Shown: piece after piece, positions 15,530 to 51,897 of the stretch
Layout of the letters: every line of letters begins with the position of its first letter
Numbering within the stretch: position 1 is the stretch's first letter
Assembly (NCBI GenBank): GCA_017514235.1
Contig: JAFWKK010000048.1
Coordinates: 1 to 64,000, forward strand
Reading direction: 5' to 3'
DNA length: 64,000 nucleotides
DNA from: Kiritimatiellia bacterium
GTDB lineage: Bacteria; Verrucomicrobiota; Kiritimatiellia; RFP12; UBA1067
Notes under the pieces: generated by a model
What the model was told of the DNA's origin: nothing
What the model saw: only the letters and a program-made list of their open reading frames with translations
Database searches by the model: none
Position numbers and translations under genes: made by a program

Positions 15530-15587
15530 CGCCGTTGCATTCGGCAGATGGCCTGGTGTGATGTATAAGGGTTAAGGAGTGCATGGC

Positions 15588-34553: not shown

Positions 34554-34580
34554 ACATTGCTAAACAGAAAGGAAACCAAC

Positions 34581-35933
34581 ATGACTGTGAAGAAAATAAT
34601 TGTTCTATCTGCCGCAATCGGCGCACTTGCGTGTTCCGCCGCAACGGTTAAGGTCGATCCGGGGCGTGAGATCGGCCCGGTAAAGCCTGTGAATGGCGTT
34701 GGGCAGCCGCCGATGATCGGATTTGTGGAATATCCCATGTTTCACTACCTGAAGGAGGCGGGGATTCCGTTTTCGCGACTTCACGACGTCGGCGGCATGT
34801 TCGGGCGCAACGTGTTCGTGGACATCCCGAACCTCTTCCGCGACTTCGACGCGGATGAGAACGACCCGAAGAACTATGACTTCGCCTTCACTGACAGGCT
34901 AATCAGCGCGCTCGTTGAGAACGATGTGGAGCCGTTCTTTCGCCTCGGCGTGACGATCGAGAACTACGCGGCGAAGATCAGGCGCTACCGCATCGACCCG
35001 CCGAAGGACTTCGCGAAGTGGGCGCGCATATGCGAGCACGTCATACGTCACTACACCGAGGGCTGGGCGGACGGCTTCAGGTACAAGATCACCTACTGGG
35101 AGATATGGAACGAGCCGGAGAACTGGGAGACCGCCGAGAAGAACGAGATGTGGCACGGCACGTTCGAGGAGTACTGCCGCCTGTACGATGTCGCATCCAG
35201 ATATCTGAAGGCGAAGTTCCCGCATCTCAAGATAGGTGGCTTCGCGAGCTGCGGAGTCACATGGATAAACCGTCCCGTCAAGAATCCGCGCGCGAAGTTC
35301 CAGTTCGACTGCTTCCATCAGTTCTTGAAGTACGTGAAGGAACATGGCTGCCCGATCGACTACTTCTCGTACCACAGCTATTCAGGCGTGGAGGACCTGA
35401 TGGGACAGACGCGCTATGTTCGTAAGTCGCTGGACGAGGCCGGGTTTAAGGGACTGGAGACATGCCTGAACGAATGGCTGCCAGCGCCGAATCACGAGAA
35501 GCTCGGCACTGCGCAGCAGGCGGCCGAGGTTGCGGCAACGCTCGTCGGCTTCCAGAACGGGCCGGTCGATTCGGCGGCGATCTACGATGCGCGGTGCGGC
35601 ATCGGCAACTACAGCCCGCTCTTCAATCCGCTTACCTACAAGCCGCACAAGGCGTACTGGGCGTTCATGGCGTTCAACGAGCTGCGCAAGGCCGGGACGG
35701 CGGTCGCGGCGGATAGCGACGCGGCGAAAGTGTGGGCCTCGGCGGCGAAGGGCGAGAAGGGCATCGTTGCGATGGTCGTGAACTTCGGCAACAAGGCTCA
35801 GCCGCTCTCGCTTGACCTTGGAGGTCGCAAGGCGTCGTCATGCCGCGTCACCGACGAAACGCGCACATGGGAGGAATGCGAGCTTCCGTCCTTGCTGCCG
35901 CCCTATTCGTTCGTGGTCGTCAGCGGCGAATAG
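34581..35933 (+). CDS. Secreted GH39-like beta-xylosidase
   Basis: 450 residues from ATG 34581 (AAAGGAAAC upstream). Signal peptide 1-20. Clan GH-A barrel with the acid/base Glu178 in E-I-W-N-E-P-E-N-W and the probable nucleophile Glu298 in C-L-N-E-W, spacing and context as in GH39 xylosidases/iduronidases. H-D-V-G-G near residue 70 and Y-H-S-Y near 265 also fit. A short C-terminal beta-sandwich closes the protein. Predicted to release xylose (or a related sugar) from oligosaccharides in the periplasm. The CE15 glucuronoyl-esterase fusion two genes downstream would fit glucuronoxylan as substrate. Confidence 0.8.
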   Translation: MTVKKIIVLSAAIGALACSAATVKVDPGREIGPVKPVNGVGQPPMIGFVEYPMFHYLKEAGIPFSRLHDVGGMFGRNVFVDIPNLFRDFDADENDPKNYDFAFTDRLISALVENDVEPFFRLGVTIENYAAKIRRYRIDPPKDFAKWARICEHVIRHYTEGWADGFRYKITYWEIWNEPENWETAEKNEMWHGTFEEYCRLYDVASRYLKAKFPHLKIGGFASCGVTWINRPVKNPRAKFQFDCFHQFLKYVKEHGCPIDYFSYHSYSGVEDLMGQTRYVRKSLDEAGFKGLETCLNEWLPAPNHEKLGTAQQAAEVAATLVGFQNGPVDSAAIYDARCGIGNYSPLFNPLTYKPHKAYWAFMAFNELRKAGTAVAADSDAAKVWASAAKGEKGIVAMVVNFGNKAQPLSLDLGGRKASSCRVTDETRTWEECELPSLLPPYSFVVVSGE

Positions 35934-35937
35934 CGGT

Positions 35938-35968
35938 TTGACGGCAAGCGTTTTTTTTCTGCTATAAT
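35938..35968 (+). promoter_or_regulatory. Promoter giving a leaderless mRNA for the duplicated sandwich gene
   Basis: TTGACG (35938-35943), a 19-base spacer containing T8, and TATAAT (35963-35968). The -10 ends exactly 7 bases before ATG 35976, so +1 should coincide with the start codon. No ribosome site precedes it. Confidence 0.6.
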
Positions 35969-35975
35969 GCGCAAT

Positions 35976-37690
35976 ATGAAAACAAAACTCACATTTGTGG
36001 TTGCGCTGGCCGTGCCTTTTGCATACGGAATTACCATATACGAGAACGACTTCTCCACGCGCACGAGCGCGGCGGCGATTCGCTCTGCCGAATGGAAGTC
36101 AGTGGATTACGTGAGCGGGGACCTTCTCACCAACACAAACAACGTCAATCCTTGGGCTTTCCCATCTGGGTCGTCGCAGAAGGTGCAGGACGGCTGGATC
36201 AAGAGCCAGGAGGTGGCCAACATCGGAAATGCCCGCGTGTATTCCGATGACGGCAACGACATGGCCACGCTCGGCGATGCGTCCAATGGCACTTCAGAAA
36301 AAAACAGGAAAATCTGCATCGTCAAGCAGCGTCTTGGCGCGACGTTCACGAACGGTACGGTGACGGTGCAGTTTGACTTCCTCCCGCCTGCTGCATGGAC
36401 GTCATATGATGGTGTCTTGCGCCGTGCGGTGTTTTCCGTCGGTGACGAACGCTTCTATTCGCCGGACGTCAACAATGACAAGGTTTATAGGTACACCGCC
36501 GGCAGCGTTGGCGTTGCGCTTACCAACTTCAGCGCGTCAGGCTCTACCAACACCCGCTATGTGTACTGGAACTCGGATGTTGATTCAGCCAATACGGCTC
36601 CGTCCTCGCAGGAGGTAACGAAAGGCGCATGGCATCGCGTTCTCATGGCGATCAACCTCGATGCGCGGACGTGGGGATTCACGATGTACGAGATGGGCAA
36701 CCATCCTGCGTTCGATGCGGCAACGCCCACGACGCCCGTCCATTCCGAAAGCAACCTTCCCTTCGCGGACAGTACCGTCACGTCCGTATCCTCCATCTGT
36801 CTCAATGGTTATGGTGTCGCATGGGGGTCTAATTCATATTCGAATGCAGGTGGTGATCCGAGACGCTGCTCTACGAGAACTTCTTCTCAACGCGCACGAT
36901 CTATTCTCAAGACAGGTACGTCACGCGGATTGCCGGTACCCTGCGTAAGGATCCCGAAGGGCAGGACGGCTGGACTCACCTCGCCACCAGCACGACGTCC
37001 GCCTTCGTCACGGACAACACGAATCCGTCGCTGGTGTTCGATCGCGCGGCCAACGGCACATCCAGCGATTTTGCCGTGCACGATCTCGGACAGACGCTTC
37101 GTGGTGGCCTGGTGACGGCGCAGGCGGACATCCGTCCGTCGAGAGGGTGGATGCAGGGGTCTGCGTCGGGTGCGGTGTATGTGCGTCTTGGCGGCGACGC
37201 GCACCTTATGGGAAACATCAACAATACCGATGCGAACTACCTTTATAACATCGCTTGCGGCTTCGGCTTCAAGAGTGTTGGCAACGGTGCATCGGGCAAC
37301 CTGTACACCAACTCCACGATATTCGCGTATCGTGGCGACTGCGCGGGCGGTGGCGAAATGGAGGCGGATGCATCCGGCTACGCCGTCGATTCGTCTCACT
37401 GGTATCGTTTTGTCGCCAGGGTAGAGATGAAGCAGAATCGGTACGACCTCGCCGTGTACGACATGGGCGCGACACAACCGACGCTTGCGACGGCGACGCC
37501 GGTCGAGCCTGTCGCGACGTTCACGGCATTGCCGTTCCGCCGGACGGCTCGCGATCTGGGCGGCATTTCGTGCATTTCCATCTCTACCTGCAACAATCCA
37601 AACAGCGCATACGACGACACGCTTTCTGCGCGAGTCGATAACCTCCGTGTAGAGCACGAGAAGTTTGGCACAATGATATTCATCAGGTAG
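35976..37690 (+). pseudogene. Secreted duplicated beta-sandwich protein, broken by a 1-base frameshift
   Basis: From ATG 35976 the first frame runs on to a stop at 37115, but its sequence turns into Arg/Ser-rich nonsense after about residue 294. From 36860 the next frame continues sensibly (E-T-L-L-Y-E-N-F-F-S-T-R-T) to the stop at 37690. One missing G after GATCC at about 36859 restores a single protein of about 571 residues. Its two halves are homologous: I-Y-E-N-D-F-S-T-R-T near the N-terminus and L-Y-E-N-F-F-S-T-R-T after the break. Signal peptide 1-16. It ends F-G-T-M-I-F-I-R, the shared C-terminal motif, so the second frame is the true end. Genuine mutation, phase change and sequencing error are all possible. 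Lectin-like fold inferred. Confidence 0.75.
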
Positions 37691-37745: not shown

Positions 37746-39995
37746 ATGAATAAGGTGACCATGGCGATTCCGGGAATGTTTGCGGCTTGCGGACTTTATG
37801 CGTCTTCAGTTGACGTGGAATTCCTCAAGGATCTGATAAGGATTCCGTCTGTGTCTGCGGATGTGGCGGAAGTCAACAAGGCGGCTGATTTCACCAAGCG
37901 CTATGCGGAATCAAAAGGCCTTTTCTGCACGATCGAGACGAATGATGTCGGGCGCAGCATGGTTTGGGTGGCGAATGTCAAGGGAAAGCGTCCGGACGTA
38001 CTGCTCTCTGCGCATCTGGACGTTGTGAAGGCGCAGTTGCCCGACATGTTCACCCCGAGGGAGGCTGACGGACGGCTCTATGGGCGCGGCGCGGGCGACT
38101 GCAAGGAGCACGTTGCTCTTTCACTGCATCTCATGGAACGTCTTGCCGGACGCGTTTCCGTCGGCGCGATATTTGGAACGGACGAGGAGATGGGCGGATC
38201 GACCACGGCTGAGATGATGAAGCGCGGCTACGGCGCGGAAAAGCTGGTGATCGTCCTTGACTCCGAGCAATTCGTGATAACAACGGTGCAGAAGGGGCTT
38301 GCCCGCTATGTCATGGAGGCGAGCGCGCCGCCGGTTCATGCTGGGCTTGCGAAGGGTGCGTCGCCAAATGCCGTGCGCGACCTCCTGCGCAACTATGAAA
38401 AGGTTGAGGCGGAGATTCCGAACTTTGAAGACGGTTCATGGCGTGACATGATGACGCTGGAGCGCGTTTCGGGCGACCGGAACCGTGCCGAGATCGAAAT
38501 CTGCGTCCGCTGGGTGCGGCATGGCGGCTTTGAACGAATCGAGGAGCTGCTTCGCAAGACATTCGGGAGCGAACCGCGCTGCCTCAGGAGAGGCGAGGCC
38601 GTGCTGCTTGACGAGACGCAGCCATACCTTGTCGAATTCCGTGAGCGTATGCGGCGCAAGTGGCCTGAACGGAATGTGGATTTCTTCCATCTCAACAGTT
38701 CGACTGATGCGCGGCATCTCCAGTGGCTCGGCAAGCCGATGCTGATTCTCGGCGCAGATGCTCGTGGGGCGCACAGGCCGGACGAACATGTGGAGCTCCG
38801 GAGCCTTGACGAGTATGCCGATCTGATAGGCAGTTATTTAATCGACAAGTTCAGCTGCGCTGCTGTTCCAGAAAATGTGCCGGAGCTGCTCACGGCGTTC
38901 AATGGGGAGAAGATCGCCACCCGCGAACAGTGGGAGGCCGTTCGTGCACCTGAGCTTCTTGAAGAGTTCACGCGTGAAGAATACGGACGGCGTCCCGTGG
39001 AGCGTCCGGAGTCGCTGGCCTTCACGGCAGTCGAGCCGGACGAGGTAGTGATGGACGGCAAGGCTCTGCGCAAGCGCATCCGCGTTGAATACGCCGGCCC
39101 GTACGGCAAGGGTTCGTTTGCATTCACGGCCTTCATTCCGCGCCAGTCGGCGCCGGCTCCTGCATTCCTGCTCATCTGCAACCGCGACCCGAACGAGAAG
39201 CTCGACCCGGAGCGAATGCTCAAGCCCGGATTCTGGCCGGCTGAGGAGATTGTGGAGCGCGGTTATGCGACCATCGCGTTCTGGAGTGGCGACATATCGC
39301 CAGACAGACAGCATGGCCGGACGCTTGGTGTGTTTGCCGTGTTCGATGATGTCGAAAACCAATACCGCGCAAAAGACGGCTGGGGTATGCTCTCCGCTTG
39401 GGCGTGGGGCGCAAGCCGCGTGATGGACTGGATCGAGACGGAACCTCTTCTTGACGCGAGGCACGTCGCCGTGGTCGGACACTCGCGGGGCGGCAAGACC
39501 GCACTCGTTGCGGGCGTGTACGACAAGCGTTTCGCAATGGCCTGCTCCAACGATTCGGGCTGCTCTGGCGCGAAACTCAACCATATCGACCTGCCGGAGT
39601 CCGAGCAGCTCGCCCACATCGTGCGCACGTTCCAGTTCTGGTTCTGCCTCAACTACACGCTGCACGTGAACGCCGAAAGGGATTGGCGCGTAGATCAGCA
39701 CGAGTTCATCGCGCTGATGGCGCCGCGCCTTGTCTGCATCGCCTCCGCGTCGGAGGATGCCTGGGCGGGACCAGTGGGTGAATGGTGGGCGGCCAAGCTA
39801 GCCTCCCCGGCCTGGGAGCTGTACGGCAAGAACGGTCTCGTCGCAGACGGCTTTCCGCCGCCCGAGACGCCGCAGCAGGAAGGCTGCATATCCTACCATC
39901 TGCGCACCGGTAAGCACGGCCTCACGCCGTACGACTGGAAATGCTACATGGATTTCGCCGACCGCCATGGTTGGCGAGCGGAAAGAAAGAAATAA
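37746..39995 (+). CDS. M20 metallopeptidase - CE15 glucuronoyl-esterase fusion
   Basis: 749 residues with a short leader (1-20). Residues 25-368 form an M20 (ArgE/DapE/carboxypeptidase G2-like) di-zinc amidohydrolase: His90 and Asp92 in A-H-L-D-V-V, Asp118 in R-G-A-G-D, Glu147/Glu148 in T-D-E-E-M-G-G-S, V-L-D-S, and a final His in G-A-H-R-P-D-E-H. Residues 375-749 form a CE15 esterase: nucleophile Ser580 in G-H-S-R-G-G-K-T-A, C-S-N-D-S-G-C-S-G after it, and the His in G-K-H-G-L-T-P-Y-D-W. CE15 splits esters between glucuronoxylan and lignin alcohols. Both active sites look complete. A homologous M20 module is fused to a GH2 enzyme at 45693-48620. AAAAAGGAAA precedes the ATG. Confidence 0.85.
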   Translation: MNKVTMAIPGMFAACGLYASSVDVEFLKDLIRIPSVSADVAEVNKAADFTKRYAESKGLFCTIETNDVGRSMVWVANVKGKRPDVLLSAHLDVVKAQLPDMFTPREADGRLYGRGAGDCKEHVALSLHLMERLAGRVSVGAIFGTDEEMGGSTTAEMMKRGYGAEKLVIVLDSEQFVITTVQKGLARYVMEASAPPVHAGLAKGASPNAVRDLLRNYEKVEAEIPNFEDGSWRDMMTLERVSGDRNRAEIEICVRWVRHGGFERIEELLRKTFGSEPRCLRRGEAVLLDETQPYLVEFRERMRRKWPERNVDFFHLNSSTDARHLQWLGKPMLILGADARGAHRPDEHVELRSLDEYADLIGSYLIDKFSCAAVPENVPELLTAFNGEKIATREQWEAVRAPELLEEFTREEYGRRPVERPESLAFTAVEPDEVVMDGKALRKRIRVEYAGPYGKGSFAFTAFIPRQSAPAPAFLLICNRDPNEKLDPERMLKPGFWPAEEIVERGYATIAFWSGDISPDRQHGRTLGVFAVFDDVENQYRAKDGWGMLSAWAWGASRVMDWIETEPLLDARHVAVVGHSRGGKTALVAGVYDKRFAMACSNDSGCSGAKLNHIDLPESEQLAHIVRTFQFWFCLNYTLHVNAERDWRVDQHEFIALMAPRLVCIASASEDAWAGPVGEWWAAKLASPAWELYGKNGLVADGFPPPETPQQEGCISYHLRTGKHGLTPYDWKCYMDFADRHGWRAERKK

Positions 39996-40101
39996 GACAT
40001 GGTAGCGCGACCTTGAATCTTTTGACGTGGTTGAGGAATACGGAGTTTGCGCGTGGTATTTTTTTTGCGCAATTGTCCCCGTGCGGCATGCGATTTTGTG
40101 A

Positions 40102-40107
40102 TATAAT
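40102..40107 (+). promoter_or_regulatory. -10 box for the beta-helix / BPL_N group
   Basis: A perfect TATAAT in the 157-base gap after the CE15 fusion, 45 bases before ATG 40153. TTGTCC at 40073-40078 is too far (23 bases) to be a standard -35. The gap also contains a T8 tract. Confidence 0.45.
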
Positions 40108-40152
40108 ACTCATTGATATGTGGCAAAATCTACATTCCAAATAGGATAAGAC

Positions 40153-42762
40153 ATGAAAAAGATACAAACCTTCTGCGCACTTGTGGCGCTTGTGGCGGCG
40201 ACGATGGCTGGCGCGGCGACGATTGAGTACAGACCTGCATCATCAGCGCCTCACTATTGGGATGCGGCTGCACAATGGTACGTTAATAGTGCTTCAGCCA
40301 ACAGGTTGCCGACGAAGGATGACGACACATGGGCGTCGTATGCGGGATTGAGAACAAACCCCCTTATCATCAGGACAGGCACGGATGCTGAAACAAAGAA
40401 GTTCTACCTTTCGAATAATTCAGGGAGTTCTCCAAGCATGGTTCCTCTGTTGGTGACAATTGATGGAGGTTCGCTGACCACTTATGATACAGCAATGCTT
40501 GGTCAAAGAAGCCCAGCAATTCTTACGATTCAAAACGGAGGTGCGTTTACGGGGAAATCAAACGTCTATATTGGCTATGATCCAATAGACACGCCCAAAA
40601 TCGCCTCGTTCCCCGCAAAGGTAATTGTCGCCGACACGGATTCGAGTTTTTCCGTTGACAATACATCATTATTCATGGGCAACCAGAAAGGCGGGCTGGC
40701 CTTGCTGGAAAACCATGGTTCGGTGAATTCTTCAGGTAATGTCTATCTTGGATACTATACGCCAGGACGGTCGTCAGGGGATATCGTGTCGGTCATCGAC
40801 AACTATGGCACATTGACCCAGAGTACATCCTACAGCTATTTTATCGGTGGAACGAGCGGACAGACGGGCATCATCACCAATCATGTGGGAGCGAGTATCA
40901 ACAATGCAAGTTGTTTCTGCGTTGGTGCTGCGTCTAATTCTGTTGGTCGGCTCGTGAATAACGGCACAATCTCCGTCAATCGCTTTTGCGTTGGCGGTGT
41001 GGAGAAGAACGCCTTGGCCTATGCGCACAACACAGACCCCAACGCGATCGCGGATGGCTACGTCGAAAATTCTGGAGCGATTAACGCCGATGGATACATT
41101 CGCATTGGTTTTCAGTCGAACTGCGTAGGCAGGGTCGAGAACACTGGCAGCATAACAGGACATACGGAATTCATCATCGGCTACTATCCGAATTCAAGAG
41201 GCTGTTTCCGTCATTCAGCTGGCACGCTCACATTTGACAATGCCAATGACACTTCAACAAGAAGCGTGATGGTGGGATATCAGGGTCATGGTTATCTCGA
41301 ACTTGCCGGTAACACCGAAACCGTATGGGACAAGACGGCTCTGCATATCGCAAGCATGGCCAACAATAGCGCGGGCTGGCATTCGAGCGGCGAGCTCGTC
41401 ATGACCAATTCCGCTTCGCTGTCCCGTGGTGGCAAAAGCGTTCAGGCGGCCGTAAACCAATATACCACTGCGCGGATTGCTCTCTACGACGAGGCTTCCC
41501 TTGTCGATGTTGACACGCTTCGACTCGGCAACGTCAAGACCGACAACTTGTTCGAAGTGTACGACAACGCAGTCGTCTCCATCACCAATCTGCTTGTGCT
41601 GAATGTCGGCAACACGTCAGACAATGTGGAGGGCACGACGACAATGAAGCTTTCCGGTAATGCAAGGGTCAGCGGCTTCAGCAACGCCTACATCGGTTCC
41701 AATACCTACAACAGCGCGGTTCTGGAGATTGCCGACAACGCCTTTTTCGGACTTCGTGACAATGCCATGAACACGGATTCCAGCATCTATGAGGAAAATA
41801 TCAAAGTCGCTTTCGGTTCCAGCCGGAAGGGTGACGCCGTGATTCGTTTGCGTGGCGGCACGATCGGACTTGGCAATCGCGGTGGCCTTTACCTTGGCGA
41901 TGTCACAAACGACCGTACGCCAGGCTGCCCCGCCAGACTTGTCGGGTATGGCAATGTAACCAACCAAGCTGAGTCCGGAACACTTTGGAGCCGAATCCAT
42001 CTCCGTTCTGGTTCGGTTACCGCAGATGGCGAGGGCGAAGAGCGGGACCTCGACCTTCAGACGTTCGCACGAATTTCGGGAAGCCTCAATGGCGAGTCAA
42101 GCGACGGGCGTGAATATCTCAACAGTTCGGGGACGAATGGTTGGTATGCAATCAACAAAGGGCGTCTTCTCTATCCGGCCCGCGATAGCGGTTCAGATAA
42201 TATCAGGCCTCGGTTTGTCGGCGATTATCAAAGGCTTGAATCAAATGTGCTCCCGCGATACGTCAACTCGATGCGCGTCATCGCCAAGAATGCAAATGAT
42301 GAAGAACTATCGCCTTCTTCTTCGCGTCGTATTGTTGCGGAGCTATACGCCCCCGACCGCACCGACATTCCTGCAGGACTGGTCGAAGACGGTGCGCAAA
42401 GCCGCAGACTCGGTGTTTGGCGTGCCGCCATTACGGGGAATAACTATAGGAACATGAGCTCGTCTGGCAGGCGCTCGTTCACTACTGCTACGACGACAAT
42501 CCGCTACGACCAGTGGAGGCTTGGCGAACTCAAGGATGAGCAGGGGAACTATCCTAGCGGGCTTGAAGTGCGCCTTTATCAGTATGATGCTTCCAGTGGC
42601 AAGTGGGAACGTCTTGCCCGTCAGTCCATTGAAGATGTGGAGACGGAAAAGAACTATCTCATCAGCGGCGATCTCAAGCAGGCATCGGGAGTGTACAATC
42701 TCGGATGGTTCGCGGTCGTCGCCAAGTGCAAGAAGATCGGGACGGAACTGATAATCAGATAA
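40153..42762 (+). CDS. Secreted beta-helix protein with C-terminal LIIR motif
   Basis: 869 residues with a signal peptide (1-21). The body is a string of about 20-residue Gly/Asn/Thr/Ser-rich beta turns, many with the pattern V-x-N-x-G-x-I/L (for example L-V-N-N-G-T-I-S-V and V-E-N-T-G-S-I-T), typical of a right-handed beta-helix. No enzymatic motif and no beta-barrel. The C-terminal 100 residues are more complex and end K-K-I-G-T-E-L-I-I-R, matching the motif of three other proteins in the window. Base composition is more A/T-rich than in its neighbours, hinting at different selection or recent acquisition. The next gene starts 5 bases after its stop. Confidence 0.75.
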   Translation: MKKIQTFCALVALVAATMAGAATIEYRPASSAPHYWDAAAQWYVNSASANRLPTKDDDTWASYAGLRTNPLIIRTGTDAETKKFYLSNNSGSSPSMVPLLVTIDGGSLTTYDTAMLGQRSPAILTIQNGGAFTGKSNVYIGYDPIDTPKIASFPAKVIVADTDSSFSVDNTSLFMGNQKGGLALLENHGSVNSSGNVYLGYYTPGRSSGDIVSVIDNYGTLTQSTSYSYFIGGTSGQTGIITNHVGASINNASCFCVGAASNSVGRLVNNGTISVNRFCVGGVEKNALAYAHNTDPNAIADGYVENSGAINADGYIRIGFQSNCVGRVENTGSITGHTEFIIGYYPNSRGCFRHSAGTLTFDNANDTSTRSVMVGYQGHGYLELAGNTETVWDKTALHIASMANNSAGWHSSGELVMTNSASLSRGGKSVQAAVNQYTTARIALYDEASLVDVDTLRLGNVKTDNLFEVYDNAVVSITNLLVLNVGNTSDNVEGTTTMKLSGNARVSGFSNAYIGSNTYNSAVLEIADNAFFGLRDNAMNTDSSIYEENIKVAFGSSRKGDAVIRLRGGTIGLGNRGGLYLGDVTNDRTPGCPARLVGYGNVTNQAESGTLWSRIHLRSGSVTADGEGEERDLDLQTFARISGSLNGESSDGREYLNSSGTNGWYAINKGRLLYPARDSGSDNIRPRFVGDYQRLESNVLPRYVNSMRVIAKNANDEELSPSSSRRIVAELYAPDRTDIPAGLVEDGAQSRRLGVWRAAITGNNYRNMSSSGRRSFTTATTTIRYDQWRLGELKDEQGNYPSGLEVRLYQYDASSGKWERLARQSIEDVETEKNYLISGDLKQASGVYNLGWFAVVAKCKKIGTELIIR

Positions 42763-42767
42763 GCTGT

Positions 42768-44621
42768 ATGAAACGGTTCTTTTTGGTTCCGTTTGCGGCT
42801 GCGGTGGCGTTAGCGGCGCAGCCTGCATGCTTGGCTAGCGCACCTTGCCAGGGCGAGGTCGCCTACATGTCGATCGTGCGCGACCATAACGGACGCATAA
42901 CGGAGAAGTCCGTCGGTTCCTTGGAACCGAGAGTGGAAAACCCTGCGTTCAGGATTGCGGCGGTCGGTTGCCTCTTCGCCCAGCTGCAGGAGGAGGGCGT
43001 TCTCGATCCGAATGCGCGAGTGGCTGACTATTTGCCCGGGTTTAAGACGCTGACTCTTAGGGAGGCGATGGTCAATTCAGCCGGGCCTCGGTTCGTGAGT
43101 GAAATCGTCGAGCCGTGCATCGAGAAGATCGTTGGCAAGAAGGTCGATGACCTGCTCGCAGAGCGGTTCTGGAAGCCGCTTGGGATTTCGGCTCGCGGGG
43201 ACGCTCGCCCTCCCGATTACCAATTCCCAACTTTCCGCGATGTGTATGTGTTCTTTAGGATGTTGGCGGATAACGGTGTGGCGGAGGACGGGACGCAGGT
43301 GATGTCTCGCAATGCGGTGAAGCTGCTCCGGCGCGGACAGGCCCCGACGACGGTGAACCGCTTTCTGAGCTACGGCACAAGGCCGCGCGGGAACGGGCGT
43401 TTCATCGGGCTTGATTCGACGCCTGAATTCGACGCGGTGGCGAATCCCGATACGGGTGAATGCGCGGTTTGGTATTGCGGCTCGCGAGGACTGCCAACTA
43501 CGGCTCGCGGGGACGCTCGCCCTCCCAACTGCCAACTGCCAACTAAAGAGCAGATTTGGAAGGAATCGCGTCCGCTTCGTGCCGGCGTGTTCGTCGGCGT
43601 GGGGTCGATGGGGCTTTCTTCCACAGAGCTGATCCGCTATGTCGCGCGTTCTCCGGAACTTGACATTTCGTTTGTCGACGGCGAGGACATGCGCAATGGT
43701 GCGCTCGACAGCCTCGACCTTCTCGTGATGCCTGGCGGGATGTCGGGCACCATCGTCGGTGACATGGGGCCGAAAGGCGTTGAGAACTTCAAGGAGTTCG
43801 TGCGTAACGGCGGCAGCTACGTCGGCATGTGCGCGGGGAACGTGATTCTGCTTGAGGACGAGTACCGCGTTGCCTACGGGTTCGGGATGGTGCCGTATTC
43901 GCGCTACGGGTCGGCAGGGGACGCGATGACCTCGATGACGCTCACCGACGAGGGCGCAATGGCGCTTGGGATGGAGAAGGGCACGTTCGACGTGTGGTAC
44001 AGCGGCGGACCCATAATGTTCCGCCGCCATGATGAAGTGCCAGACGCGAAGATAGAGACGTGGGGCATTTACGCAAGCAACATCACCAACGAGGGCTGGG
44101 GTGCGCACATGGTCGGCAACGTCGCCTGCATTGGCGGCATATACGGCAAGGGGCGTATCGCGGCGACAGCGTGCCATCCAGAGTTCCGCCACAGCGCCGA
44201 TCCGCTCGCGAAGGGGCTCTTCCGCTATGCGACGGGACGCGAGATCACCTTCCCCGAGCCGAAGGTCAACCCTGGCGCGAAAAAAGTCTACTACTATTCC
44301 TGGCCTGTTGCTGGGAAGGAGTGCGCCCGGCTTCTCACTGAGATCGACGCCGACCCCGACATCGACGTCAAGACCGACGAGCGCGACGAGATGTGCGGTG
44401 GCGCATTGGATGCGTTCGACGCGCTCATAATCCCCGACGGCGCGGACTGGTCGCTTTCGCTTGACATGTTCCCGCCGGAAGTAGACGCCGCGATTGCCGC
44501 GTACGCCGCGAAAGGTGGCAAGGTGTATTCATGGGGCACGAGCGCGCGGCTCCATCTGCCTAAGGGCGGAATCGCCTGCCGCAGCGCGTACGATGTCTAT
44601 GCACGGCTAAAAAAGGATTAG
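42768..44621 (+). CDS. Inactive beta-lactamase-like domain fused to BPL_N (class I glutaminase-like) domain, secreted
   Basis: 617 residues from ATG 42768. Signal peptide 1-25. Residues 28-245 follow the class C beta-lactamase/serine-hydrolase fold, but the S-x-x-K catalytic motif reads A-V-G-C (Ala65 and Cys68 in place of Ser and Lys), so hydrolase activity should be lost. Residues 270-500 are a BPL_N domain of the DJ-1/class I amidotransferase superfamily: L-L-V-M-P-G-G, then Cys355 in V-G-M-C-A-G-N as nucleophile elbow. A partial second glutaminase-like module follows to the end. Two in-frame repeat elements encoding A-R-G-D-A-R-P-P sit inside the first domain and at the domain junction. 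Function unknown. The start lacks a good ribosome site; coupling to the upstream gene is likely. Confidence 0.7.
   Translation: MKRFFLVPFAAAVALAAQPACLASAPCQGEVAYMSIVRDHNGRITEKSVGSLEPRVENPAFRIAAVGCLFAQLQEEGVLDPNARVADYLPGFKTLTLREAMVNSAGPRFVSEIVEPCIEKIVGKKVDDLLAERFWKPLGISARGDARPPDYQFPTFRDVYVFFRMLADNGVAEDGTQVMSRNAVKLLRRGQAPTTVNRFLSYGTRPRGNGRFIGLDSTPEFDAVANPDTGECAVWYCGSRGLPTTARGDARPPNCQLPTKEQIWKESRPLRAGVFVGVGSMGLSSTELIRYVARSPELDISFVDGEDMRNGALDSLDLLVMPGGMSGTIVGDMGPKGVENFKEFVRNGGSYVGMCAGNVILLEDEYRVAYGFGMVPYSRYGSAGDAMTSMTLTDEGAMALGMEKGTFDVWYSGGPIMFRRHDEVPDAKIETWGIYASNITNEGWGAHMVGNVACIGGIYGKGRIAATACHPEFRHSADPLAKGLFRYATGREITFPEPKVNPGAKKVYYYSWPVAGKECARLLTEIDADPDIDVKTDERDEMCGGALDAFDALIIPDGADWSLSLDMFPPEVDAAIAAYAAKGGKVYSWGTSARLHLPKGGIACRSAYDVYARLKKD
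43190..43236 (+). repeat. In-frame repeat element, copy 1
   Basis: Begins with the 25-base core (GGCTCGCGGGGAC then GCTCGCCCTCCC) and ends in degenerate 7-base units (CCAATTC, CCAACTT). It encodes A-R-G-D-A-R-P-P-D-Y-Q-F-P inside the beta-lactamase-like domain. Confidence 0.8.
43479..43544 (+). repeat. In-frame repeat element, partial copy plus full copy 2
   Basis: A short copy (43479-43500, GGCTCGCGAGGACTGCCAAC) is followed by a full copy (43502-43544) with the same 25-base core as copy 1 and then (CCAACTG) heptamers. It encodes the linker between the beta-lactamase-like and BPL_N domains. Confidence 0.85.
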
Positions 44622-44622
44622 C

Positions 44623-45675
44623 ATGTTTGCGGCGATATTACTGGCGGTTGCCAAGGTGGCGGTGTATGCCGGCAGCGGAGCAGGCGGCAGCGGTGTCGTG
44701 GAGTGTCTGCGTCTTGTGAATGAATCGCCCGAGCTGGAGCTTCATCTCGTCGACGCAAAGGGTGTGCAGTCCGGTGCGCTGGACGGCATGGACATGCTTC
44801 TGATGCCCGGCGGAAGCAGCGACCGCGAATACAAGGCGCTTGGCTCCAACGGCGTGGCGAGGCTGGATGCGTTTCTGCGCAACGGCGGCGGATACCTTGG
44901 CATCTGCGCCGGATGCGCCGTGGTCATGGACGAAAAGTCGCGCGCACGAATGATCCCCTGGAAGTGGAGCGGTTCGGTACCGAGCACGATCTTTCCGACG
45001 ATCCAGATCAACGAAAAAGGGTCGGCCGCGCTTGGCGTAAAGGAGGGCCCCATATGCGTACGCTACCACGGTGGTCCCTTCATATGGCCAAGCACGAATG
45101 TGTTTGATGGCGTGAATACGGAGCAGTGGGCCACGTTCGACGCTGAGGGTTCGATGAATGGCCGGCACAAGGTGAAGATGTACGGTGCTGCGGCCATCGT
45201 GGGCGGCACCTATGGCAAGGGCAGGATCATTGCATGCACTGTGCATCCCGAATACAATAACGACACGCTTTTCATCATGAAGGGCGCGTTCAAGTATCTG
45301 ACCGGTCAGGATGTAACCTTCCCGGTGCGCACCCGCACGCCGCGCGCGCTTGCCGTCGGGCTTATAACGTCTGACGTTTCAGGAGTTGATGTGGCCGAGA
45401 CCATTTTGGCCCTTTCCTCGGAGAAGGGGGTGGATCTGGTGCCAATCGGCACCGATGCAGTCAACATGCGAGCTCTGGATCATATTGACGTGCTCGTTCT
45501 AGTGAACGACCGCATTGCAAAGAAAAGTTCCTCGGTTGATCGGATACGCGAGTTTGCGTCGCGGGGCGGGAAGGTGGTTGGCTTTGGCAGCGGCGTCAAG
45601 GCGCTGCCGACTGGTGGCGTCGCATGCCGCGACGGCAAGGAAGCCGTCGCCATTGTAAAGGGAATGGTTAAATAG
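44623..45675 (+). CDS. BPL_N-type class I glutaminase-like protein
   Basis: 350 residues; starts 1 base after the preceding stop, with AAAAGGA nearby. Short hydrophobic N-terminus (1-15), possibly a leader. Residues 10-230 are a BPL_N domain homologous to the one in the preceding gene: L-L-M-P-G-G, nucleophile Cys95 in L-G-I-C-A-G-C, Y-G-K-G-R-I-I-A-C-T-V-H-P-E with a His-Glu pair as in class I amidotransferases. Residues 240-350 are a second, degenerate Rossmann-like module lacking Cys. BPL_N is known from the N-terminus of fungal biotin-protein ligase; bacterial free-standing forms have no settled role. The tandem pair suggests duplication. It probably belongs to the same operon as the GH2-M20 gene 17 bases downstream. 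Confidence 0.72.
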   Translation: MFAAILLAVAKVAVYAGSGAGGSGVVECLRLVNESPELELHLVDAKGVQSGALDGMDMLLMPGGSSDREYKALGSNGVARLDAFLRNGGGYLGICAGCAVVMDEKSRARMIPWKWSGSVPSTIFPTIQINEKGSAALGVKEGPICVRYHGGPFIWPSTNVFDGVNTEQWATFDAEGSMNGRHKVKMYGAAAIVGGTYGKGRIIACTVHPEYNNDTLFIMKGAFKYLTGQDVTFPVRTRTPRALAVGLITSDVSGVDVAETILALSSEKGVDLVPIGTDAVNMRALDHIDVLVLVNDRIAKKSSSVDRIREFASRGGKVVGFGSGVKALPTGGVACRDGKEAVAIVKGMVK

Positions 45676-45692
45676 AAAAAGGAGTAGAAAAC

Positions 45693-48620
45693 ATGTTAAC
45701 GGCTATGCTGCTGGCGGCGATGATGACGCCGTTTGGAGAGAAGGTGACGGCGGACAATGCATGGCGCGAATATCCGCGTCCGCAGATGGTGCGCGATAAC
45801 TGGCAGTGCCTGAACGGCGCTTGGAACTGGCAGGTGACCAAGGTCGCTGATGCGGCGGCCATGCCGGAGAAGTGGCAGGAGAAGAAGATGCTCGTTCCGT
45901 TCGCCATCGAATCGCCGCTTTCCGGAATCGGGCGGCTGATGGAGGACGACGAGTACCTGTGGTACCGCAGGACCTTCACGGCGGCGAAGCGCTCCGGAGA
46001 GCGCGTGTTGCTTCACCTGGACGCTGTCGACTTCCGTGCGCAGGTGTTTGTGGGGCATCATGAGGTCGATGTGCCGCACGAAAGTGCCAACGTGCCGATC
46101 ACGGCCGACATAACCGACTTGGTGAAAGACGGCGAGAACGAGCTGACCGTTTGCGTGTGGGATCCTACGGAGTTCGGCGCGTACGGATCGACGGGCAAGC
46201 AGATTCACAAGCCGCAGAGCTGCTTCTACACGCGCTCTTCCGGCATCGTCGGCTCGGTCTGGACTGAGAATGTGCCCGAGACGTACATCCGCTCCTACAA
46301 GGTGATGCCGGACATCGACGCCGGCACTGTTCGGTTCGAATTCGACATCGCGGGCTCGCGTGCGGAAGAGGTCGAGGTCGCCGTGGAAGGCTGCGAGCCG
46401 TCGAAAGGCATGGACGCGATTACCGTGAAGATGCCGGCAGGTTTCCGCTTGTGGAGCCCTGAAACGCCGAATCTATACAACTTCACCGTCAAGTGCGGCA
46501 AGGATTCGGTAAAAGGCTACTTCGGAATGCGGAAGTTCGAGAAGCGCAAGGACGCGAAGGGCGTGCTGCGGTTCTTCCTCAACAACAAGCCGTACTACAT
46601 CCTCGGAACGCTCGATCAGGGCTGGTGGCCGGACGGGCTTCTCACTCCGCCGTCCGAAGAGGCGATGGAGTTCGACATAAGAACGCTGAAGGAGTATGGG
46701 TTCAACTCGATGCGCAAGCACATCAAGGTGGAACCGCTGCGCTACTACTACCTTTGCGACAAGATAGGCCTGCTGCTTCTGCAGGACATGCCGTGCGACT
46801 TCCCCGAGTGCCGTCACGACATGCCCGGCGGGAAGGGCACCGACACCGTTCGCTACGGCTTCTACCGTCGCGACTGGAAGCGCGTGATGGATCATCTCAT
46901 GAATGTCGTCTCAATCGGCGTGTGGATCCCCTACAACGAGGCGTGGGGGCAGCCGCGCGAGTTCCTGACCCACTCAACGCTCGACTGGACGAAGCGTTAC
47001 GATCCGACGAGGCTCGTGAACGGGCCTTCTGGGTGGAACGACTACGAGGGCGGCAACTATGTCTACGAGGCGAGCATCGGGCATTGGCGCGGCAAGAAGA
47101 AGCCGTCCGCCCACAAGCCGGTCGGAGAGTGCGAGGCGGCGGACTTCGTCGACTACCACCACTATCCCGAGCCGGTGATGCCGCCTGTAAACGACCGCCG
47201 CATATCGTTCCTCGGCGAGTTCGGCGGAATAGCCTTGAAAGTCAAGGGACACATCTGGGACATAAACGACGATAACTATGGCTACGTCGAGGACAGCGAC
47301 GCGAAGGCGTTGGAGCGCCGCTACCTCGACTACATGAGCAAGGTCGAGGAGTTCGCGGCGGCTGGCATGGGAGGCTCGGTCTACACTCAGACGACCGACG
47401 TGGAACGCGAAGTCAATGGCCTGATCACCTATGACCGTAGGGTGCTAAAGTTCAACAAGGAGGTTCTTAAGGCGGCGCACGGTAAGATTATCGAGGCTGC
47501 GGTTGGAGCAAAGCCCGTGGCAGAGGAGCCTAAGGCTGGCTCACCCGACGATGACGTGAAGGACCTTTCCGAGTTGCTGTCAATTCCAAGCGTGTCTACG
47601 GACGTGCGCGAGTGCGACCGTGCCATTGAGTGGATGAAATCCTATCTCGAATCCAGAGGCGTCTGGTGCAAGACGGTGGTTGCGTCGGATGTCGACGGGC
47701 GCAAGGTCCTGTATGCGGCGACGCTTCCGGAACTGAAGAACCCTGACTTCGCGCTGGTCACCCACCTGGATGTTGTGGCATCGTCGTCGCCTGAGATGTT
47801 CAAGCCGAGACTGGAGGGGAACCGGCTTTATGCCCGTGGCGCCTGCGACACCAAGGCGAACGCGTTCTGCGGCGCCAAGGCGCTTGTCGCGCTGAACGGC
47901 AGGGCGTCTGTTGGTTGCATCTTCGCATCCAACGAGGAGATAGGCGGCTCGACCACGAAGTCCGTGCTCGACCAGGGCTATGGCTACCCGAAGAGGGCGA
48001 TCGTCGTACTGGACGCGGGGTCGAAGAAGGACAATATACAGTATTCCTGCATGGGCTGTTCGTACTACAAGGTCACGGCGTACGGAAAAGCCGGCCATGC
48101 ATCGCTTCCCGAAAAGTGCGAGAACCCCATATACGCCATTGCGGAGGCGGCGATCAAGCTGCGCGACAACTATCCGAAGCGCGAGCCCGGGGAGCGGAAG
48201 AACTGCGCGGCGGTCACGATCATCGGCGGCGGCGAGGCCCAGAACCGCATTCCCGGCGAGGCTTCGATGACCGTAAACGTGCGCTTCACAGAAGATGGCG
48301 GACTCGACAAGGAGCGTGCGCTCATCGAGAAGATCACCGGACTCAAGACGGAGCTCATACGCGGAACGCCTGCGGCGTGCGGCGACCCCGAGTCGCCGGT
48401 ATTCCTGCGCATCTGCTCGATAGCGAAGAAATTCTACCCCGACCGCTCGTGTGCGCCGGAAAACGGACGCGGCGCCAACGACATGCGCTGGTTCAGCGGA
48501 TTCAAGGGAGCGATCGCCAGCCTTGCCATGAACCTCGACGGAGGACATTCTGACAACGAGTGGTGCGATGTCTCGGACCTCGGCAATTTCACCGACATGC
48601 TCGTGGAGATGTGCAGGTGA
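45693..48620 (+). CDS. GH2 glycosidase - M20 metallopeptidase fusion
   Basis: 975 residues; AAAAAGGAG precedes the ATG. A short hydrophobic leader is likely. Residues 25-600 are a GH2 beta-galactosidase/glucuronidase-type enzyme: sugar-binding jelly roll, Ig-like domain, TIM barrel with acid/base Glu416 in P-Y-N-E-A-W-G and nucleophile Glu509 in L-G-E-F-G-G. Residues 620-975 are an M20 di-zinc amidohydrolase: His691/Asp693 in T-H-L-D-V-V, Asp719 in G-A-C-D-T-K, Glu748/Glu749 in S-N-E-E-I-G-G-S, V-L-D-A-G, a lid-domain His in K-A-G-H-A-S, and His952 in G-G-H-S-D. Both active sites look intact. The M20 part is closer to the one in the CE15 fusion than to generic members by eye. The whole could cut a sugar and remove an acyl-amide substituent. 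Confidence 0.85.
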   Translation: MLTAMLLAAMMTPFGEKVTADNAWREYPRPQMVRDNWQCLNGAWNWQVTKVADAAAMPEKWQEKKMLVPFAIESPLSGIGRLMEDDEYLWYRRTFTAAKRSGERVLLHLDAVDFRAQVFVGHHEVDVPHESANVPITADITDLVKDGENELTVCVWDPTEFGAYGSTGKQIHKPQSCFYTRSSGIVGSVWTENVPETYIRSYKVMPDIDAGTVRFEFDIAGSRAEEVEVAVEGCEPSKGMDAITVKMPAGFRLWSPETPNLYNFTVKCGKDSVKGYFGMRKFEKRKDAKGVLRFFLNNKPYYILGTLDQGWWPDGLLTPPSEEAMEFDIRTLKEYGFNSMRKHIKVEPLRYYYLCDKIGLLLLQDMPCDFPECRHDMPGGKGTDTVRYGFYRRDWKRVMDHLMNVVSIGVWIPYNEAWGQPREFLTHSTLDWTKRYDPTRLVNGPSGWNDYEGGNYVYEASIGHWRGKKKPSAHKPVGECEAADFVDYHHYPEPVMPPVNDRRISFLGEFGGIALKVKGHIWDINDDNYGYVEDSDAKALERRYLDYMSKVEEFAAAGMGGSVYTQTTDVEREVNGLITYDRRVLKFNKEVLKAAHGKIIEAAVGAKPVAEEPKAGSPDDDVKDLSELLSIPSVSTDVRECDRAIEWMKSYLESRGVWCKTVVASDVDGRKVLYAATLPELKNPDFALVTHLDVVASSSPEMFKPRLEGNRLYARGACDTKANAFCGAKALVALNGRASVGCIFASNEEIGGSTTKSVLDQGYGYPKRAIVVLDAGSKKDNIQYSCMGCSYYKVTAYGKAGHASLPEKCENPIYAIAEAAIKLRDNYPKREPGERKNCAAVTIIGGGEAQNRIPGEASMTVNVRFTEDGGLDKERALIEKITGLKTELIRGTPAACGDPESPVFLRICSIAKKFYPDRSCAPENGRGANDMRWFSGFKGAIASLAMNLDGGHSDNEWCDVSDLGNFTDMLVEMCR

Positions 48621-48665: not shown

Positions 48666-50660
48666 ATGAACATTGCAACGAGTGCGCTTTTCGCTGCGCA
48701 GGTGCTTTTCCCGGCGGCGGAGACGAAGCCAGAGGGCTATGACGGAGCCCAGGTTCGCATCGAAGGCGGCGCGGCGGTGGTGGACGTTGCGCCGCGGCAC
48801 AGGTTCAGCGGCGTGAATTTCGTGTTTCCTGAGCCGTTCGCGCTGAACCGCTACGACGTCTGGTGCGCGGAGGTGTCCAACCGCACCGACAGGACGTTGG
48901 AATTCATCGCGCATGGCATAGCCAAGGGCACGCCCAAGCGGTTTGCGAACATGCGGTTCAGCCTCGGGCCGGGCGAAGGCAAGGTCGTCAAGGCGCACTG
49001 CAACCGTAAGTGCTATACGGTGACGCCTGGAAGCAAGGGTCTTCCAGGCATGATGGGTTATGACCTTGAATTCCGTCCCGACCACCTTGACAAAACCGGC
49101 AGCATCAGTTCCGTCATCGTCTTCAGCATGCCCCAGGAGTCGCCTGCGCAGTTCGACGTCAAGCGGGTATGGGTGGAAGGCGAACAGCCGGACATGACGA
49201 TTAAAATCGACGACGACTTCTTCCCGTTCGTGGATGCGTTCGGTCAGTTCGCTCACGCAGAATGGCCGGGGAAGGTGCATTCGGTCAAGGAGCTGAGAGC
49301 CGCTGCGGCAGCAGAGGATGCGGAGCTTGCCGCCCATCCCGAGTCGCCGATTCCTGGCGCGGACCGTTTCGGCGGCTGGGGCGCGGGCCCGCAGCTGAAG
49401 GCGACGGGTATGTTCCGCACCGAGAAATGGAACGGGCGCTGGTGGCTCGTCGATCCCGACGGACACATCTTCTTTTCGCTTGGCTGCTGCTACGTGCGCC
49501 TTCAGGGCAAGACGGCCGTGACGGACCGTGAGAAGTTCTTCTCTTGGCTGCCGGTGAAGAATGATTCGTTTTTCGGTGACTGCTGGTACAAGGGCAAACA
49601 CCAGTGGCTGAACAAGTGCTTCTATCGGGGCAAGGGCGTGGTGTCGCTGTTCGACTTCGCGCAAGCGAACCAGAAACGCATCTATGGCGAGGACTGGAAG
49701 TCGATCTTCAACGAACGCCAGCACCGCCGCATGCGTTCCTGGGGATTCACGTCCATGGGCAACTGGTCCGATCCGGAGGTCATGTCGTTGAGCCGCACGC
49801 CGTACGTTGACAACTTCAACCTCGACTGCGTGCGCAAGATTGCGGGCGACAAGAAGGGCGTCTGGCGCAAGTTCCCGGACGTCTACGCACCCGATTTTGC
49901 GGAGAACGTTCTCAAGAGCGCCTACAAGACGCGCATCGAGAAGTCCCGTACCGATCCCTGGTGCATCGGCTGGTTCGTTGAGAACGAACTGCATTGGGGC
50001 GCCGGCTGGAACGGCAACGGCGAGGACTTGGCCAGTGCGGCGGTCGATTCCCCGGAAGACCAACCTGCGAGGATGGAATACCTCCGCCGCATCCGAGCAG
50101 CGCACGGGCCTGATGCCACGTTCAAGGATGCGACGCATGAAGACGTCAAGGCTTTCGCTGCCGATATCGCCGAACGGTATTTCAGCACCGTCAAGAAGGC
50201 CGTCGAAACCGTCGCGCCCGGACGCCTGTATTTGGGTTGCCGTTTCTGCAAGGGGTATCCTGACGCCGTGCGTGCCGCGACCCGCCATTGCGACGTGGTG
50301 AGCTACAACAGCTATAGCGAACTCCCTTACACGCCGAGGCCGGATGACGGTGTAATTGACAAGCCGACGATCATCGGTGAGTTTCACTTCGGTTCGCTCG
50401 ACCGCGGCACCATGAATGCGGGGCTCGTGCCCTGTCGGGATATGAAGGAGCGCGTCGAGAAGTACAAGGCGTACGTGCGCTATGCCATAAAGGACGAGCA
50501 TCTCGTCGGCGTGCACTGGTTCTTCTGGCATGACATGCCGCTTACCGGCTGGATGGACGGCGAGGACTTCGGCAACGGCGTGATGGACGTCACCGACAAT
50601 CCGCATCCCGAGATGGTCGAGGCCACGCGAGAGCTGGCATGTGAGCTGTACAGGCAGTGA
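48666..50660 (+). CDS. GH50-like beta-agarase
   Basis: 664 residues with a weak leader (about 1-18). The N-terminal 190 residues are a beta-sandwich carbohydrate-binding-like domain; the rest is a clan GH-A barrel. Probable acid/base Glu441 in G-W-F-V-E-N-E-L-H-W-G and nucleophile Glu572 in I-I-G-E-F-H-F-G match the GH50 agarase pattern. H-W-F-F-W-H-D lies near the end of the barrel as in that family. Known GH50 enzymes release neoagarobiose or related units; in gut or soil relatives the substrate could be another beta-galactan. It sits between the GH2-M20 fusion and a sugar transporter, consistent with one catabolic operon. GGATTAGGGG provides the ribosome site. Confidence 0.75.
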   Translation: MNIATSALFAAQVLFPAAETKPEGYDGAQVRIEGGAAVVDVAPRHRFSGVNFVFPEPFALNRYDVWCAEVSNRTDRTLEFIAHGIAKGTPKRFANMRFSLGPGEGKVVKAHCNRKCYTVTPGSKGLPGMMGYDLEFRPDHLDKTGSISSVIVFSMPQESPAQFDVKRVWVEGEQPDMTIKIDDDFFPFVDAFGQFAHAEWPGKVHSVKELRAAAAAEDAELAAHPESPIPGADRFGGWGAGPQLKATGMFRTEKWNGRWWLVDPDGHIFFSLGCCYVRLQGKTAVTDREKFFSWLPVKNDSFFGDCWYKGKHQWLNKCFYRGKGVVSLFDFAQANQKRIYGEDWKSIFNERQHRRMRSWGFTSMGNWSDPEVMSLSRTPYVDNFNLDCVRKIAGDKKGVWRKFPDVYAPDFAENVLKSAYKTRIEKSRTDPWCIGWFVENELHWGAGWNGNGEDLASAAVDSPEDQPARMEYLRRIRAAHGPDATFKDATHEDVKAFAADIAERYFSTVKKAVETVAPGRLYLGCRFCKGYPDAVRAATRHCDVVSYNSYSELPYTPRPDDGVIDKPTIIGEFHFGSLDRGTMNAGLVPCRDMKERVEKYKAYVRYAIKDEHLVGVHWFFWHDMPLTGWMDGEDFGNGVMDVTDNPHPEMVEATRELACELYRQ

Positions 50661-50682
50661 AGCGGCTGACGGGGGAAACGCC

Positions 50683-51897
50683 ATGAAGCTTGCCGTAGCC
50701 ACGATGCTCATGCTGTTCACGATGATTCAGTTCATCGTGAACTTTGCGGGCTCCATGGGGGTGGTCGTAAAGAACCAGTTCGGCGCTTCCGTGACCGCCT
50801 CTCAGTTCGGCGCGGCGGCGATGTTCCTGGGGTTCCTGTTCTTCGGCATTCCCGGGGGGCTGATCTTGAAGCGGCGTGGCTACAGGTTCACCGCGCTTTT
50901 CGCCACCGGGGTGGCGTTCGCTGGCATGGGCGTGCAGCTTGTGTCTGGGATGGTTGCTTCGTTTCCCGTATATGTCTTCGGGGCGTTCGTGTCGGGGGTC
51001 TCCGCGTGTCTCCTCAATCTGGTCGTGAACCCTATGCTGAACGTGTTGGGCGGCGGCGGCAAGAAGGGGAACCAGCTGATCCTCATCGGCTGCACGCTGA
51101 ACATCATCGGCGGAATGCTGGCACCGCTCCTTACGGGACTCCTTGTCGGTGGTGACATCGAGACGGCCAAGGTCATGGACGTTGCACCGATGCTGGTGAC
51201 GGCCATGGTCATATACCTTACGGCCTTCGCAGTCGTCTGGTTTGTAAAGATTCCAGAGCCGGGGCTGGAAGCTGCGGGTGCGTCGACCGAAAGCGTGTTC
51301 GCGGCGGTGAAGGACGCGATGCGGTACCGCAACCTGGCGTTCGGAGTGCTGGCGATCTTCCTTTATGAGGTCATAGAGTCCGGAATCCCCAACATGGCGA
51401 ACCTGTACATGAGCCCGATAAGGGAGGTCGGTCCTGCGGTAGCGGGGACTGTTGTTTCGGGCTACTGGCTGGCGATGGCGATCGGGTGCGGGATTGGAGG
51501 GGTCTTTGGCACGAAGGTCCCTGCCCGGACGATGATGATCTGCTGCTCGTTGCTCGGGGTAACGTTGCTGGCGCTGGCGATAAACGTTCCTTATGAGCTT
51601 GTAAAAGTGTTCTCGATGACCGTTCCGAAGTCGATGATCTTCGCGGCGCTTTGCGGATTTGCGACTTCGATCATGTGGTCTAGCATCTTCAACCTAGCGG
51701 TCGAGGGGCTCGGCAGCAGGGTTGAGATCGCTTCCGGCATATTCATGACGATGGTCTGCGGAGGCATGCTTCTGCCGTTGCAGGGCCTTTTGGCAGACAA
51801 GGTCGGCATCCTCAACAGCTATTATCTCACCATCGCGCTCTTCCTGTACCTCTTCCTTTATGCGACGGTGCTTTCGCGTCCACGTCGCGTCGGCTGA
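50683..51897 (+). CDS. MFS sugar transporter (FucP/GluP-like)
   Basis: 404 residues from ATG 50683 with GGGGGAAA 5 bases upstream; the longer frame from 50641 overlaps the agarase. About twelve hydrophobic membrane segments are visible with a central cytoplasmic loop near residue 195. G-I-P-G-G-L-I-L-K-R-R-G-Y-R between segments 2 and 3 is the usual MFS loop motif, in the form seen in the fucose/glucose-galactose (FucP) branch. Predicted proton symporter in the inner membrane bringing the sugars released by the upstream GH50, GH2 and CE15 enzymes into the cell. The sugar itself cannot be read from sequence. Confidence 0.85.
   Translation: MKLAVATMLMLFTMIQFIVNFAGSMGVVVKNQFGASVTASQFGAAAMFLGFLFFGIPGGLILKRRGYRFTALFATGVAFAGMGVQLVSGMVASFPVYVFGAFVSGVSACLLNLVVNPMLNVLGGGGKKGNQLILIGCTLNIIGGMLAPLLTGLLVGGDIETAKVMDVAPMLVTAMVIYLTAFAVVWFVKIPEPGLEAAGASTESVFAAVKDAMRYRNLAFGVLAIFLYEVIESGIPNMANLYMSPIREVGPAVAGTVVSGYWLAMAIGCGIGGVFGTKVPARTMMICCSLLGVTLLALAINVPYELVKVFSMTVPKSMIFAALCGFATSIMWSSIFNLAVEGLGSRVEIASGIFMTMVCGGMLLPLQGLLADKVGILNSYYLTIALFLYLFLYATVLSRPRRVG

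Follow-up and report, generated by a model that had tools for sequence, protein, structure and literature searches.

Does one and the same amidohydrolase module sit on two unrelated carbohydrate enzymes in a single gene cluster, and would such a pairing reveal a polysaccharide with amide-linked substituents? The question is raised by a 64,000-nucleotide stretch of DNA (hereafter, the window), for which the original prediction was that an M20 amidohydrolase had been fused both to a CE15 esterase (P0001) and to a GH2 glycosidase (P0002). The window lies on contig C40 of the source assembly (G000; 3.96 Mb, 82 contigs, 92% complete), and we infer the host to be a gut Kiritimatiellae bacterium.

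The Gene Cluster

The genes of the cluster and the domains of the two fused proteins are as follows:

34557..35933, + strand: GH39-like enzyme, TTG start as listed (PF01229, 1.5e-21)
35967..37690, + strand: protein without Pfam match, in two overlapping frames (35967-37115 and 37034-37690)
37746..37805, + strand: signal-peptide-like N-terminus of P0001 (MNKVTMAIPGMFAACGLYAS), by eye from the translation
37806..38855, + strand: M20a domain of P0001, residues 21-370, subfamily without N-x-I-P (PF01546, 2.8e-18)
38859..39992, + strand: CE15 domain of P0001, residues 372-749 (PF22244, 1.4e-27; OtCE15A, 6grw, 3e-76)
40153..42762, + strand: 869-aa protein with a signal-peptide-like start, no Pfam match, repeat-rich by eye
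42705..44621, + strand: weak beta-lactamase-like part and BPL_N/glutamine-amidotransferase-like domain (BPL_N, 1.7e-13)
44623..45675, + strand: BPL_N domain protein with GICAGC (BPL_N, 7.7e-16)
45693..47516, + strand: GH2 part of P0002, residues 1-608, signal-peptide-like start (Pfam GH2 domains)
47535..48617, + strand: M20b domain of P0002, residues 615-975, canonical N-R-I-P lid motif (PF01546, 5.3e-17; PF07687, 2.8e-12)
48666..50660, + strand: GH50-like enzyme (4bq2 beta-agarase, 1.3e-83)
50641..51897, + strand: MFS sugar-transporter-like protein (PF07690, 2.5e-19)

The neighbors proposed originally were all recovered, GH39 and MFS by Pfam and GH50 by its PDB match; the MFS protein also matched the gluP subfamily model, below the cut-off. 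Kin of the GH50-like gene come after GH2-M20 in L061. The two overlapping frames upstream of P0001 contain similar sequence and are probably one frameshifted gene, kin of which adjoin M20 and GH39 genes in L076, L078, and L197. Two BPL_N (glutamine-amidotransferase-like) proteins stand side by side at 42705-45675, the first with a beta-lactamase-like part that matched the Pfam Beta-lactamase family at 5e-4 (below the cut-off) and whose sole SxxK among the first 320 residues is at the far N-terminus. An Rfam search of the window gave no match.

Two Bifunctional Hydrolases

Both fused frames, with the predicted domain orders, were borne out by Pfam. P0001 (37746-39995, + strand, 749 aa) comprises an M20 domain followed by CE15, with a Peptidase_M20 match at residues 86-364 (67 bits against a cut-off of 24.6) and a glucuronyl esterase match at residues 503-694 (97.5 bits against a cut-off of 27). 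P0002 (45693-48620, + strand, 975 aa) has the reverse arrangement, with Pfam GH2 domains within residues 43-443, a Peptidase_M20 match at residues 688-973 (62.8 bits against the same cut-off), and an M20_dimer match at residues 790-881.

All four active sites had been called intact, a claim that stood apart from one detail in CE15. Loss of M20 zinc ligands was looked for by careful alignment, and the di-metal ligands were intact in both domains, with H90/D92/D118/E147/E148/D172/H198/H343 present in P0001 and H691/D693/D719/E748/E749/D774/H802/H952 in P0002. In the CE15 half, whose closest PDB sequence match is OtCE15A, Ser580 and His724 align with that enzyme; the column of the Glu in its SNESG motif is occupied by Asp603 in P0001, with Asp671 on a second loop. 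P0001 has the profile match and the Ser-His-acid triad of a CE15 member, with Asp603 and Asp671 as candidates for the acid, which, judged by alignment, is like that of OtCE15A and not identical to it. The GH2 half of P0002 has the domain set of its family and matched 7sf2 (5.4e-124) and beta-D-galactofuranosidase 2 (9j6n, 9.6e-96), aligning end to end with both and sharing both Glu motifs. E416 and E509, which we take to be the two catalytic Glu, align with the Glu of 7sf2 in the NEAWGQ and LGE(F/Y)GG motifs. P0002 differs from these enzymes by its C-terminal M20 domain, and since the two nearest PDB matches differ in name, the sugar removed by the GH2 half is not fixed by them.

A search for further M20 and carbohydrate-enzyme fusions found the GH2-M20 architecture again and left the M20-CE15 architecture confined to the window. 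GH2-M20 occurs in 2 of the 346 class genomes (two candidates scored in each), the only case besides the window among the matches listed (97 relatives were also covered, with up to 8 or 9 places scored in each) being G004, where it is full length (1-975), 86% identical, and free of stops. There, the GH50 and MFS genes follow as in the window; a DUF4838 gene lies 5′, replacing the block of the window from M20-CE15 to BPL_N. No second full-length M20-CE15 protein was found among the matches listed from the 97 relatives and 346 class genomes. The nearest kin of the P0001 halves are separate proteins, of 395 aa for M20a (71% identical; L062, from another family of the order) and 410 aa for CE15 (68%; L002, same genus), and the CE15 domain was not placed with support in a CE15 tree. 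The junction between the halves of P0001, at residues 370-372, shows no stop, nearby methionine, or internal signal peptide, and the two halves have similar GC contents (0.588 and 0.625).

The literature searched, partly available as incomplete text, yielded no M20-CAZyme fusion, M20-CE15 included. In the accessible descriptions of the multicatalytic enzymes BeCE15A-Rex8A (CE15-GH8) and CkXyn10C-GE15A, CE15 is, as in P0001, joined to a second catalytic domain; the partner there is a glycoside hydrolase, whereas in P0001 it is an M20 metallohydrolase.

Two Distant M20 Domains

The two M20 domains of the window are only 29-32% identical to each other. In a tree of 52 aligned M20 domains, M20a fell in a clade of seven (100/100, stem 0.83; P0001, L062, L140, L141, L142, L063, and L064), and M20b fell in a clade of six (100/100) within a group of 32 (100/99). 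Forcing the window domains and the G004 ortholog together cost 272 log-likelihood units (AU test, p-AU 9.7e-70). A single shared M20 module, as originally proposed, is ruled out by the separate, fully supported clades and by this test; on their sequences, the M20 domains of P0001 and P0002 are distant cousins, joined separately to their partners.

The shared motif wording on which that proposal rested is indeed present, but it is a family-wide signature and does not mark one module. It is common to M20a and M20b because it is near-universal among the 52 domains, in all of which the His and Asp of HxD, the Asp of RGxxD, and the first Glu are conserved (52/52 each), the second Glu being Glu in 47 and Asp in 5. 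Neither window domain reached an NCBIfam cut-off, and the closest PDB match of both was 2rb7, an M20 protein of unstated specificity.

An M20 Clade without the Lid Motif

In M20 enzymes, the lid motif N-x-(I/V)-P provides an Asn for substrate binding. The six-residue stretch holding this motif is missing from all seven members of the M20a clade and is kept in 44 of the 45 other aligned domains (the remaining one reads NAIA; P0002 has NRIP), as well as in 6/6 out-of-class homologs with alignment coverage (13 loci tried, 7 without coverage). Alignments with PDB entries likewise point to the motif as typical of the family. P0001 retains a region of lid length with the lid His and Arg, from which N-x-(I/V)-P is deleted, and gave no M20_dimer match. 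The lid Arg, kept in 51 of 52 domains, aligns with an Arg of the DapE dimerization domain that, in the accessible text of that study, lies near the substrate region, DapE without this domain being inactive (PMC4012986). Besides the di-metal and catalytic residues, the window domains have the His and Arg of the lid in common with DapE/ArgE, carboxypeptidase G2, and 2rb7; unlike these, M20a is without the lid N-x-(I/V)-P, and both window domains are fused to carbohydrate-active domains and putatively exported. The loss of the motif suggests a changed, specialized rather than generic M20a substrate.

Among the 346 class genomes, the clade accounts for 7 matches with E values no higher than 3.8e-156, the next match standing at 1.8e-85. 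Two short patterns run against 84,980 species genomes returned 6 loci at ≥42% identity, the rest being partial matches at 25-39%, and among 387 phylum genomes, matches of M20a level occurred only in G000 and G070. From these sequence searches, the clade appears confined to Kiritimatiellae, as it was found only there in the data searched.

Some of its members keep glycan-related company. In L142, a DUF4838-M20a fusion is followed by a heparinase-II/III-like gene, and the locus also holds a gene similar (484 bits) to the GH20-like gene adjoining M20a in L140. In L062, M20a adjoins an MFS transporter and lies close to a DUF1565 protein and to a regulator of sugar type, and a 798-aa neighbor gave no Pfam or PDB match; no CAZyme was identified alongside the M20a genes of L062 and L141. 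Two of the seven members (L063 and L064) are fused to C26, which, like the lack of CAZymes at those two loci, counts against a glycan role; the joining of CE15 to GH20 in L010 counts in its favor.

Fusion Partners and Neighborhoods

We surveyed M20 domains in the 346 class genomes (70 matches listed with E no higher than 1e-40, from five scored candidates in each genome) and inspected all 17 M20 frames longer than 550 aa. Eleven were judged real fusions, all in family f1 of gut Kiritimatiellae, with CE15 (1), GH2 (2), DUF4838 (1), C26 (2), C69 (3), an M14-like domain (1), or two BPL_N domains (1). The other six (L067, L068, L187, L188, L190, and L192) were rejected as frame noise, having Arg-rich out-of-frame N-termini and no additional Pfam match. 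The fusion label requires at least nine changes on the M20 tree, and none of the 45 out-of-class M20 matches from a sample of the phylum lay in a frame longer than 548 aa. Besides the GH2-M20 of G004, fusions outside the window, including those of the other two families, were:

L063:1873-3837 and L064:8816-10732: M20 and Peptidase_C26
L066:1135-3453: M20 and Peptidase_C69 (Pfam)
L189 and L191: M20 and C69 (phmmer with L066)
L069:4525-7776: M20 and two BPL_N
L142:2484-5405: M20 and DUF4838
L186: M20 and M14-like domain (by eye, no Pfam match)
L081, L082, L083, L084, and L085: P0002-type GH2 and GDPD-like domain (4 loci) or ADP-ribosylglycohydrolase (1)
L010:1495-4059: CE15 and GH20
L024:229-2550: CE15 and PGA_cap
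L019:616-2586: CE15 and GH16
L018: CE15 and CE15, in tandem

The GH2 cases come from six long GH2 frames scanned, four matching GDPD and one ADP_ribosyl_GH. Because unrelated hydrolases of many kinds are fused to M20, GH2, and CE15 alike in this family, domain pairing is weak evidence of a shared substrate, and promiscuous fusion of exported hydrolases would, on these sequences, be a better explanation of the pairing than one shared module.

Gene neighborhoods were counted over 63 of the 65 immediate same-strand neighbors of M20 genes (at most 42 loci, Pfam). These included GH39 (3), GH127 (2), LamG (2), GH42 (1), and GH20-type genes (one GH20, PF00728, and two GH20b, PF02838), counts made without a control set, and otherwise many housekeeping families; no CAZyme was dominant among the 25 of 82 families listed. 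A general M20-CAZyme neighborhood was rejected on these counts, within the 63 neighbors and the same lack of a control set. The original proposal of one reshuffled amidohydrolase is not supported, the two domains lying in distant branches, and the step from it to a shared substrate loses further weight through the promiscuous partners and the absence of a dominant CAZyme among the neighbor families listed.

Proposed Function and Alternative Readings

P0001 and P0002 are genuine bifunctional enzymes of an unusual kind, built from known families, and their pairing alone reveals no new polysaccharide. The reading that we consider probable is that they are two exported hydrolases that arose through independent gene fusions, in a lineage where the joining of secreted hydrolases is habitual; the architecture, intact residues, separate origins, and promiscuous partners are shown by the sequences. 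Each M20 part, its di-metal site kept, would most likely be an aminoacylase or exopeptidase acting on small amides or peptides met outside the cytoplasm, export being predicted by eye from the signal-peptide-like starts of both proteins. The CE15 half would cut uronic-acid esters and the GH2 half a terminal glycoside. The benefit of fusion may lie in joint export and co-expression on mixed glycan or glycopeptide food, and the two halves need not act on one linkage. Three observations count against this explanation: the M20a clade keeps glycan company (L142 with DUF4838, heparinase-like, and GH20-like; L140 with GH20-like), as a substrate-specific role would predict; the lost lid motif points to a specialized substrate; and a single metagenome-assembled genome is the source of the M20-CE15 fusion. 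Whatever M20a acts on, the joining of hydrolases throughout this family of gut Kiritimatiellae is a warning against inferring substrate from domain pairing.

It is much less probable that the M20 domains are general exported peptidases acting on the peptides of plant, mucin, or microbial glycoproteins, from which the glycosidase halves strip sugars. Seven of the 11 M20 fusions involve peptidase- or amidase-like partners (C26, C69, M14-like, and BPL_N), and kin are recorded from herbivore gut or rumen samples; however, the part of the cluster that was tested revealed no endopeptidase, and, to our knowledge, a set of CE15, GH39, and GH50 is not typical for mucin degradation.

M20 aminoacylases act on N-acyl amino acids, a class to which a uronoyl-amino acid amide formally belongs; M20a chemistry on it is plausible, and such an amide is a possible M20a substrate. 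Bacterial glycans containing hexosamines and uronic acids with amide-linked amino acids are described in the available portions of PMC10609480 and PMC3210612. We regard it as quite unlikely that the M20a clade is a new glycan-directed amidase which, its lid motif lost, detaches amino acids from the uronic-acid carboxyls to which they are bound by an amide. If it were, P0001 would be one exported enzyme able to uncap the uronate carboxyl whether it is blocked as an ester (by CE15) or as an amide (by M20a), the glycans concerned would be bacterial or other hexosamine/uronate glycans, and a missing activity would be supplied for amidated bacterial glycans. The motif-less clade is a compact, testable target.

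The broader idea that both M20 modules strip one type of amide substituent from a polysaccharide whose esters and glycosides are the targets of CE15 and GH2 strikes us as distinctly improbable. Both fusions do share a cluster with GH39, GH50, and MFS genes, glycans with the required linkage exist (according to the same partial texts), and the partners of M20a include GH20, DUF4838, and heparinase-like genes, but the M20 subfamilies differ, one being without N-x-(I/V)-P; G004, with GH2-M20, has no M20a-clade member (its 3 listed matches are at 1.2e-68 or weaker); and partners are promiscuous, with no dominant CAZyme adjoining M20 in the 25 of 82 families listed. Chimeras from assembly or a frame artefact are very improbable. 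In their favor, the architecture of P0001 is in one metagenome-assembled genome only among the matches listed; against them, GH2-M20 is present in a second genome and P0001 is in frame at its domain boundary, with no stop or internal signal peptide and with similar GC.

Elsewhere in the window, FG-GAP repeats fused to a glyoxalase-like domain (15579-18764) form one more odd fusion, and a PQQ-type propeller is fused to a metallophosphoesterase at 57179-59287.
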